From: Armatimonadota bacterium
GTDB taxonomy: Bacteria > Armatimonadota > UBA5829 > DTJY01
Assembly: GCA_023511795.1 (NCBI GenBank)
Contig: JAIMAU010000002.1
Coordinates: 124,001-188,000, forward strand
Reading direction: 5' to 3'
Length of the DNA: 64,000 nt
Shown: in pieces, positions 33,085 to 36,733 of the stretch
How the letters are laid out: each line of letters starts with the position of its first letter
Numbering within the stretch: the stretch's first letter is position 1
Translations under genes and position numbers: made by a program
The notes under the pieces: generated by a model
What the model was told of the DNA's origin: nothing
What the model saw: only the letters and a program-made list of their open reading frames with translations
The model's database searches: none

Positions 33085-34251
33085 ATGCCCAACAAAGTTA
33101 CCATTGACGAATACAGACGCATTTTTCTTAATGGCGAGCCGTGGTTTCCCATTTGCTTTACTCCGTTTGCGCCGCCTCTTGGAGCGAAAGATCCGACGGG
33201 TAGAGACGCGATTGAGGTTTTGGCGGAGGGGGGCGTGGACTCCTTTCGCATTGGTAGAGGACACAACGACCCTAGCGAGGACGAGGAATGCCAGAAATAT
33301 CTCGACTGGTTTGCTGAGTATGGGGTTTATGGGTGGCCGTACATTGCCGATATGACAGTTTTTGACCCGAAACATCCTGAAAGGAAGGAACGGCTTCGAC
33401 AGTTCGTCGAGCGCTTTAGAGAGCATCCAGCGCTGGCAATTTACAAGACCATGGACGAGCCGGCTTGGGGTAAGCACTCAATCCCTGGAATGCTGGCAGC
33501 TTATAGGTATCTCAAGCAAATTGACCCCGATCACCCTGCATGGATGGTTCACGCCCCTAGGGATACTGTCGAGCTGTTGACTAAATATTGCAAGGCGTGT
33601 GATATAGCGGGCATTGACATCTACCCAATTTCCGTGCCGATGGGCCTTCACAGTCATCTGCCAAACAAAAATATCAGCGTTGTAGGTGATTATGCTGACT
33701 TCATCAATAGTGCTGTGCGCGGAAAGAAGCCTTTCTTTATGGTCCTCCAGGTTTGTTGGAGCGGGGTTACGCCTCCAAAAAGGATTCTTGTAATGCCAAC
33801 TTTTCACCAGGAGCGCTATATGGCATACCAGGCTATCATTAAAGGTGCGCGTGGCCTTGTTTTCTTTGGTATGCCGGTTGCATTGCAGGGCAAGAATGCA
33901 GAGCTAGGCTATAATTGGACATTTTGGGAAGAGGTCTTGCGGCCGCTCCTTAGTGAGTTTAAAAAAGGAACAGAATTGTATTCAGCGCTTGTTGCTCCTC
34001 CTTCGAACCTACCTTTAAGCGCAACAGGTGCACCCGACATTGAGTTTACTACTAGAAAGGTAGGACCGAACGTATACATCTTTGCTGCCAAGCGTGAGAG
34101 CGCTGAGGTGCCGGTTACATTCTTGGGCGATTTCTTGGATGGTGATATCGAAGTCTTGTTTGAAAATCGCGCAATCAAAGCCAGGGGTGGCTCGTTCACG
34201 GATTCCTTTGGCCCAAACGACGTACACGTGTACAAGTTTTGCTTAAGCTGA
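33085..34251 (+). CDS. glycoside hydrolase-like TIM-barrel protein without signal peptide
   Basis: A 388-residue protein from ATG 33085, where GGAGG ends five bases before. The N-terminus IDEYRRIFLNGEPWFPICF and PPLGAKDPTGRD resembles the first strands of GH-A sugar hydrolases, and PALAIYKTMDEPAWGK contains a strand-end acid pair. HPAWMVHAPRDT and DIAGIDIYPISVPMG continue the barrel, and GARGLVFFGMPVA is near the end. The C-terminal 90 residues (VYIFAAKRESAEVPVTFLG, VHVYKFCLS) form a beta-sandwich. No signal peptide is seen, so it may act in the cytoplasm on imported oligosaccharides. It lies 48 bases after the GH42-like gene. Its family is not certain. Confidence 0.7.
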   Translation: MPNKVTIDEYRRIFLNGEPWFPICFTPFAPPLGAKDPTGRDAIEVLAEGGVDSFRIGRGHNDPSEDEECQKYLDWFAEYGVYGWPYIADMTVFDPKHPERKERLRQFVERFREHPALAIYKTMDEPAWGKHSIPGMLAAYRYLKQIDPDHPAWMVHAPRDTVELLTKYCKACDIAGIDIYPISVPMGLHSHLPNKNISVVGDYADFINSAVRGKKPFFMVLQVCWSGVTPPKRILVMPTFHQERYMAYQAIIKGARGLVFFGMPVALQGKNAELGYNWTFWEEVLRPLLSEFKKGTELYSALVAPPSNLPLSATGAPDIEFTTRKVGPNVYIFAAKRESAEVPVTFLGDFLDGDIEVLFENRAIKARGGSFTDSFGPNDVHVYKFCLS

Positions 34252-34259
34252 TTTTTGGT

Positions 34260-34288
34260 ACCTATAACACTTTTCTCATAGGTTTTTA
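34260..34288 (+). terminator. weak terminator hairpin after the 33085 gene
   Basis: ACCTAT (34260-34265) and ATAGGT (34278-34283) form a 6-bp stem over a 12-base loop, followed by TTTTAAG. It sits just past the stop. The stem is short and AT-rich, so efficiency is doubtful. Confidence 0.45.
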
Positions 34289-34497
34289 AGTTTGCATTAC
34301 ATCATTTGAAAAATAGAAAGCAAGGAGATAATTAATTCTCAATCGGTAGCGACGTTTGAACAACAGCTATATCACCTAAGTAATTGTCGGTTAACAAGAA
34401 GATACCAGTGCTAATAGAATTACAAATAGCTGGATAAGACTAATTATTAGAAGTGAAAATCTGGCCTGAGATTGCTCCAAGAAGAATGCAGCGGATT

Positions 34498-35547
34498 TTA
34501 CGGAAAGACTTTGATTCGTCCTGGGATGTCCGAGGTTATCGAACCTATGACAGCCGCGGTAAAAACGCCTGCCGATTTGAGTTTCGCGACGAGATTATCG
34601 ACCTTCTCCGGCGCAACTGCCATGAGAAGGCCGCCTGAGGTTTGCGGGTCGCTCAGTACAAGCTGTGCGTCTTCCTTTATCTCGGGTGTGAACGTAACAT
34701 TTGCCGCCACATATTCGCGATTTGAATAAGCGCCGCCCGGTATGACTCCTTCCTCCACCAGCCGCCATGCTTCAGCTAGTACAGGAATTCTAGAAAGAAA
34801 TATTTCGGCCCCAACTTTACTTGCTAAAGTCATTTCCCAGAGGTGGCCTAACAATCCAAAGCCTGTTACGTCAGTGCATGCGTTGACTCCAATTTCAGTC
34901 ATTACTAAGGAAGCATTCCGGTTGAGGGTTTTCATAATGTCAATAGCCTGGTGTGCGGCTTGAGGTGTAGTTTCGTCAGCTTTGATGCCAGTGGTAATTA
35001 TTCCAATTCCAAGTGGTTTGGTTAGAACAAGGGCATCACCTCTCCGCGCCCCGGCATTCGTGACAGGTGCTTCCGGTGTGGTGAACCCGATGACTGCCAT
35101 GCCATACTTTGGTTCAGGGTCGTCAATTGTATGGCCGCCTACGATGGTTACCCCTGCTTCCTTTGCTTTGTCACTTCCGCCAGCTAGAATTTGATCAAGA
35201 ACAAATAGCGGGAGGGTCCTTACTGGAAAGCCGACGATATTAAGCGCAATTGAGGGTTGGACACCCATTGCATAGCAGTCACTGAGTGCATTTGCGACGG
35301 CGATCTGCCCGAAGTCGTAGGGGTCATCAACCACCGGCGTGAAATAATCCACCGTAGCGGCTATAGCTAGGTCATCGCTGACTTTGTAGACCGCCGCATC
35401 GTCTGCAGTATTCAAACCAACAAGGACATTTGGATCTGTGATTGGCGGTAGACGGCGCAGAACCTGCGCCAGGTCGGCTGGGCTGACCTTGCACGCTCAC
35501 CCACCGCCGTGGGTTAGCAAGGTCAATCGTATTTTGCTTTCAGCCAC
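34498..35547 (-). CDS. selD: selenide, water dikinase, itself a selenoprotein (UGA-encoded Sec)
   Basis: SelD makes selenophosphate, the selenium donor for Sec-tRNA and selenouridine. The plain open frame begins only at residue 45, because an in-frame TGA (35499-35497) interrupts it. Starting from GTG 35547 the frame reads VAESKIRLTLLTHGGG, then TGA, then ACKVSPADL, aligning with E. coli SHGAGCGCK so that TGA sits at the catalytic Cys17 position and Lys20 is kept. Many SelD enzymes have Sec there. A candidate SECIS hairpin follows at proper distance. The remaining 300 residues have DDAAVY, FGQIAVANALSDCYAMG, DPQTSGGLLMAV. Total is 350 codons. AGGTGG is 8 bases before GTG 35547. It follows the radical SAM gene by 48 bases, same strand. 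Confidence 0.92.
35454..35499 (-). promoter_or_regulatory. bacterial SECIS candidate directing UGA recoding in selD
   Basis: After the UGA (35499-35497, minus strand), GGCGCAG and CTGCGCC pair perfectly as a 7-bp stem (35470-35464 with 35460-35454) around the loop GTT. Between the UGA and the loop are 33 nt. Published bacterial SECIS rules require a loop beginning with G, 16-37 nt from UGA; both are met. A smaller hairpin, AGGTC/GACCT, lies between. SelB would bind here. Confidence 0.72.
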
Positions 35548-35595
35548 GGGAATCACCACCTTTCACGCAATTATTATTCTTCCCACTTTGGAGAA

Positions 35596-36681
35596 TCACC
35601 TTTTCCTGGGTTCGTATATGCAATATGGTTCTGGGGCAAGGTAGTCGCCGGTAAGAGCGTAGGCACGGGCGCGGCATCCCATGCATATTCGCCGAAATTC
35701 ACAATAACCGCATTTTCCGTGGAGACTGTCTTCATCACGAAGGCGATGGAAAACTTCGGCATTATCCCATATGTCCTTGAAGTGGGTCTGGCGTATGTTC
35801 CCGGCCGAGATTGGCAGATAACCGCAGGGATACACTTCGCCTTTGCTCGAAACAAAGCAGACTCCAGAGCCAGCAAGACATCCTTTTGTCATTGCCTCAA
35901 AGCCATGTGTTTCCGAGGTGATCTTGGCGCCCTCTGCTCGGGCGCGTTGGTGAATAATTCGAAAGTAATGGGGAGCGCAGGTAGCCTTCAAATTGATCTT
36001 AGAATCTTTCGACCGATCATATAGCCAGTTAAGCACGCGCTCATATTCCGCTGGTTCGATCATCTCATCGTCGGCTATTTCTTTTCCACAGCCCGTTGGG
36101 ACAAGAAGGAAGATATGCAGTGCCGCTGCCCCTCGGCTGGCCGCGAGTTCGAGGATTGCTGGGATTTGGTCTACGTTTTGCTTCGTAACTGTCGTGTTGA
36201 TTTGAAAGGGTATGCCATCCCTTTTCAGATATTCGATTCCCCGCAAAGCGGCGTCAAATGAGCCGTAAGCTTGTCGAAATCTGTCGTGGGAGGCGGCATT
36301 GGAGCCGTCGATGCTCACACTTACACGCCGAATCCCTGATTCTTTGATTGCTTGAGCGACTTCTGGTGTGATTAGCGTGCCATTGGTTGCCAGTGCGACT
36401 GGCAGTTCTTTTGACTTAGCATAGGATGCGATTTCGAAGACGTCAGCACGCACAAGTGGTTCGCCGCCGCTAAGCACGATAACTGGCTTGGCGAAAGATG
36501 CGATTTGGTCAATTAGAACCCTTGCTTCCGCTGTCGAAAGCTCGTCTGACGACCGCTTCTCAGCGGGAACGGCTCGACAGTGGATGCAATTAAGATTGCA
36601 TGCTGTGGTAAGCTCCCAAAACACGAGTCTTGGTGTGAACACACTGCGATGTGAATATTTCATGGAATTGCTCTTTCGCAT
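35596..36681 (-). CDS. radical SAM/SPASM-domain protein (heme-biosynthesis AhbC/AhbD/NirJ-like)
   Basis: A 361-residue iron-sulfur enzyme. The N-terminal radical SAM cluster motif CNLNCIHC lies near residue 29-36 after VFWELTTA, followed by VLSGGEPLVRAD and VSVSIDGSNAASHD, both standard AdoMet-radical features. The C-terminal SPASM region has CGYLPISAGNIR, CGYCEFRRICMGCRARAYAL and a last cysteine in YCIYEP, giving additional [4Fe-4S] clusters. Sequence style is close to the AhbC/AhbD/NirJ enzymes of alternative heme and heme d1 synthesis, but no other heme gene is near. Its neighbour is selD, 48 bases downstream. Alternatives: maturase of a peptide or selenium-linked protein. The first ATG is 36681; ATG 36663 is another. 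Confidence 0.82.
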   Translation of the reverse strand: MRKSNSMKYSHRSVFTPRLVFWELTTACNLNCIHCRAVPAEKRSSDELSTAEARVLIDQIASFAKPVIVLSGGEPLVRADVFEIASYAKSKELPVALATNGTLITPEVAQAIKESGIRRVSVSIDGSNAASHDRFRQAYGSFDAALRGIEYLKRDGIPFQINTTVTKQNVDQIPAILELAASRGAAALHIFLLVPTGCGKEIADDEMIEPAEYERVLNWLYDRSKDSKINLKATCAPHYFRIIHQRARAEGAKITSETHGFEAMTKGCLAGSGVCFVSSKGEVYPCGYLPISAGNIRQTHFKDIWDNAEVFHRLRDEDSLHGKCGYCEFRRICMGCRARAYALTGDYLAPEPYCIYEPRKR

Positions 36682-36733
36682 AGATGTTATTAGATTATAT
36701 CATCCAACTTAAGCTTATTCCATTCGATATTTG

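Follow-up and report, generated by a model that had tools for sequence, protein, structure and literature searches.

A selD gene from an Armatimonadota bacterium with an in-frame UGA at the catalytic position and a SECIS-type hairpin downstream: a predicted selenoprotein

The selD gene on the reverse strand of the window (the whole stretch of 64,000 nucleotides that was analysed) carries an in-frame UGA at the codon for the catalytic residue. Almost certainly it is an ordinary bacterial selenoprotein gene, for a SelD that itself contains selenocysteine (Sec), decoded by way of SelB and a hairpin downstream of the UGA. The local features are as follows:

34498..35547, reverse strand: selD, selenide water dikinase, predicted to contain Sec; 349 aa, GTG start, TAA stop
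35497..35499, reverse strand: in-frame UGA, predicted Sec codon 17 of selD, from direct reading and alignment
35454..35470, reverse strand: bacterial SECIS hairpin of selD, GGCGCAG-GUU-CUGCGCC
35554..35561, reverse strand: likely ribosome-binding site of selD, AGGTGGTG, 6 nt before GTG 35547, from direct reading
35596..36681, reverse strand: ahbD, radical SAM heme b synthase, upstream of selD; TIGR04545 536 bits, cut-off 500

The frame that opens at GTG 35547 and closes at the TAA at 34498 comprises 350 codons, and its sole internal stop is the TGA at codon 17, set in the motif HGGG-U-ACK; here the initial annotation had read the gene correctly. It was also right that standard ORF finding truncates the gene: a plain ORF finder returns 34498-35415 only, 305 aa from TTG 35415. 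When the TGA is translated as a residue, homology to SelD extends over the whole length of the protein. In profile searches, TIGR00476 matches residues 7-315 with 390 bits (cut-off 125) and NF002098 scores 375 bits (cut-off 299); the Pfam matches are AIRS and AIRS_C. Alignment with the nearest solved structure, 3u0o (8e-76), sets residue 17 against Cys17 and Lys20 against Lys20: the UGA occupies the catalytic Cys/Sec position, and the essential lysine three residues on is kept.

The predicted start at GTG 35547 is supported by AGGTGGTG ahead of it, and by a relative in another genus of the family (L020, 70% protein identity), in which AGGAGGTG precedes an ATG that aligns with the GTG and opens a protein beginning MADE-. 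This evidence bears on the proposal that the UGA is a real stop, with either a short SelD in use from TTG 35415 or a pseudogene. A 305-aa ORF is indeed present downstream of the UGA; however, this short form lacks both residue 17 and Lys20, the stretch ahead of the UGA is conserved from locus to locus, with a start and ribosome-binding site, and no other stop falls within the 350 codons. A real stop is therefore very improbable. The gene upstream, ahbD, ends 48 bp before selD on the same strand, and the two are possibly cotranscribed. AhbD is the heme b synthase of the siroheme-dependent heme route. The order ahbD-selD recurs within the family, in L020 and in a congener (L019), and was not seen at other selD loci.

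Conservation of the UGA itself can be followed from close relatives to the phylum. The congener, at 97% protein identity, and L020 both have TGA at the same selD codon. Among 291 genomes of the phylum, selD was found in 138, with a TGA inside it in 116; 111 of those 116 have selA. Co-occurrence over all 291 is marked: 133 carry both selD and selA, 5 selD only, 9 selA only and 144 neither. Comparison of in-frame UGAs with the congener (over the selA/C, selB and molybdopterin gene stretches) was swamped by near-identity of the DNA; at 70% identity, selD alone stood out. Two genomes (G209 and G274) each carry two UGA-containing copies of selD.

A sequencing or assembly error, in which TGA stands for TGT or TGC and the gene encodes a plain Cys-SelD, is a natural suspicion, as TGA is one base away from either codon and Cys-SelD is common (41 of the 110 loci examined). 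Yet the same codon is TGA in the congener, in the family member and in more than 100 other genomes, and only the TGA-bearing genes preserve the hairpin downstream. Independent genomes thus already refute the error, and the chance of it is negligible.

The hairpin was described beforehand as a ‘3′ hairpin’ with a GTT loop, 33 nt from the UGA and inside the published 16-37 nt range; loop and spacing stand, but the wording does not, as the structure is 3′ to the UGA only, lying inside the coding frame rather than at the gene's 3′ end. The stem pairs 35470-35464 with 35460-35454 (7 bp; 8 counting a T-G pair below) and closes a GUU loop at 35463-35461, the 33 nt being counted from the A of the UGA to the first loop base. 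The SECIS element of E. coli fdhF has a bulged U; the selD hairpin is without one, and is otherwise within the bSECIS model. That model, as restated in PMC13188914, specifies an apical loop of 3-9 nt, an upper stem of 4-16 bp, a G at loop position 1 or 2, a UGA-to-loop distance of 16-37 nt, and an energy of −7.5 kcal/mol or lower. The selD hairpin lies within all of these limits: the loop has 3 nt, G first and then U, the stem 7 bp, and the computed energy lies between −11.3 and −13.0 kcal/mol (comparison with dinucleotide shuffles gives z of about −3.7 to −3.9). An Rfam search of 33500-36700 found nothing at E values up to 1.

Taken alone, the single sequence gives only a moderate signal: when the peptide encoded by the 54 nt that follow the UGA was recoded with synonymous codons, 31 of 2000 versions folded no worse than the native sequence. 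That the hairpin goes beyond chance follows instead from comparative evidence, that is, pairing and covariation across relatives. Over all 66 distinct UGA-selD sequences, which come from many lineages, standard pairs fill 88% of stem cells, compared with 77% after shuffling of the 3′ arm (0 of 500 shuffles reach 88%), and the covariation score is 0.32 compared with 0.17 in the shuffles, which ignore relatedness. A set of 41 Cys-selD sequences, under much the same protein constraint, serves as a control: there only 48% of cells in these columns are paired, and covariation is at shuffle level. An alignment of 33 sequences picked from the 66 (A1) was kept out of these statistics. Paired exchanges among the relatives include GGCGCAG/CTGCGCC, GGCTCAG/CTGAGTC, GGCACAG/CTGTGCC and CGGACAG/CTGTCCG; 63 of 67 sequences open the loop with G. 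This exact hairpin does not form in roughly 15 of the 66 UGA-selD relatives; it is thus not placed alike in all of them.

The minimum-energy fold contains a further hairpin closer to the UGA (about 35489-35471), which was considered as part of the SECIS element and rejected. It does pair with covariation in UGA-selD sequences (69%); but Cys-selD sequences pair there as often (71%), and the protein code explains this.

The genome is a draft (3.09 Mb in 35 contigs, 97.6% complete with 2.45% contamination by tool estimate), and it encodes the complete selA, selB, selC and selD set. The three genes that lie outside the window are:

C14:37725-37817: tRNA-Sec (selC), anticodon UCA; 69 bits, ARAGORN agrees
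C14:35514-36875: selA; 596 bits
C12:54163-56043: selB; 402 bits, with the SECIS-binding winged-helix domains wing_2 and wing_3

About 0.85 kb separates selA from selC, with one HD-domain ORF in between. The initial annotation, which called the organism a probable maker of selenoproteins, had named two grounds on which the idea might fall: absence of selA, selB and selC, and an error in the UGA. With all three genes in the same genome, and the UGA conserved as described, neither holds. The same genes weigh on another proposal, that the UGA is read as some other amino acid, by near-cognate suppression or under a reassigned code. Such readthrough exists elsewhere, as in the non-Sec readthrough of insect SPS1-UGA (PMC4561486). 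Here, however, the full Sec machinery is encoded in the genome, and the UGA falls on the catalytic Cys/Sec residue and precedes a SECIS hairpin; insertion of another amino acid is extremely improbable.

Selenium use extends beyond selD. That SelD might be the only selenoprotein of the genome was considered and rejected, as a second gene was found on the same contig:

L159:1309-1914 = C2:312645-313040, reverse strand: prxU, PrxU-type peroxiredoxin, second selenoprotein gene; NF040737

Its in-frame UGA falls at the peroxidatic Cys (FTFV-U-PTE), and the protein scores 367 bits against NCBIfam NF040737 (cut-off 270); a short hairpin with a GGUC loop, weak at −5.7 kcal/mol, lies 17 nt after the UGA. 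Further selenoproteins were sought in the formate dehydrogenase, peroxiredoxin, HdrA-like and FlpD families and through hairpins of the selD type, and the selenoproteome given here is partial to that extent. No Sec formate dehydrogenase was found: the sole formate-dehydrogenase-like gene (C5:124367-126289) lacks a UGA, and its score falls below the family cut-off. HdrA-like and FlpD matches contain no UGA inside the matched stretch, and the selenouridine synthase YbbB was not found in this genome. Searched against the genome, a covariance model built from the selD element recovers selD itself (E 1e-16); none of the next matches (E 1.3 to 9.9) has an in-frame UGA in a convincing setting. As the model finds selD alone, it is unable to detect the SECIS elements of other genes.

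A gene cluster lies in the stretch C5:118000-132000 (L144). It encodes a molybdopterin oxidoreductase with, by eye, Tyr and not Cys or Sec at the usual ligand position; the cluster also includes, judged by eye from translations, a [NiFe] hydrogenase-like set and Wood-Ljungdahl-like genes (methyltransferase, CODH/ACS delta-like, CooC-like).

Expression of selD as a Sec gene would follow the established workings of the Sec system. tRNA-Sec would be charged by SerRS, converted by SelA to Sec-tRNA-Sec, and carried by SelB; SelB would bind the hairpin at its apical loop, which contains a G and lies 33 nt past the UGA, and would deliver Sec at codon 17 in place of termination. Sec17 and Lys20 are expected to belong to the flexible N-terminal loop in which selenide is handled. 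From selenide and ATP the enzyme would make selenophosphate. Selenophosphate feeds SelA; production of SelD would thus depend in part on its own product. Because of this dependence, and because the selenoproteome found is small (SelD and the Sec peroxiredoxin), the selD UGA is a candidate for a positive-feedback selenium switch: no selenium, then no complete SelD, then no further Sec synthesis. Such a switch seems unlikely.

A Sec-containing SelD with UGA and hairpin is a common arrangement, known for decades. Such genes made up 19% of selD genes in a set of 223 prokaryotic genomes (PMC4561486), and among bacterial selenoproteins none are more widespread than FdhA and SelD (PMC1794560). The case described here shares with the known ones the family, the residue position, the UGA, the downstream SECIS and the co-occurring selA, selB and selC; there is no difference of substance, only of host lineage. 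Zhang et al. 2006 observed that Sec-decoding genomes without a Sec FdhA all have Sec-SelD, and that most also have YbbB (PMC1794560). This genome is like them in having Sec-SelD and no Sec FdhA that could be found; it differs from most of them in that YbbB was not found, and it has a Sec peroxiredoxin.

Several genomes of the phylum contain another form of the enzyme: a Cys-type SelD flanked, in one fused protein, by a Cys-rich segment on the N-terminal side and an AhpD/CMD domain on the C-terminal side. The loci are:

L164:19-1692; L165; L166:77-1657; L167; L168; L169:103-1701; L170:112-1746: fused Cys-SelD

The N-terminal segment (LGHCICNP..CPC..CPCAGE) resembles ferredoxin-thioredoxin reductase by eye, with no Pfam match; the C-terminal domain has a CxxC and matches PF02627 and TIGR00778, and the loci are often close to selA. 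In genome G243 a UGA-SelD and a fused Cys-SelD occur together. In the literature consulted, the only SelD fusions described are Ndh-SelD and NifS-SelD (PMC2398784); one with AhpD/CMD is unmentioned there.

The selD finding corrects an annotation and adds no new biology: standard gene callers would drop the first 44 residues of SelD, the catalytic residue among them. As for the organism, with selA, selB, tRNA-Sec(UCA) and a second Sec gene in addition to selD, it very probably makes selenoproteins.
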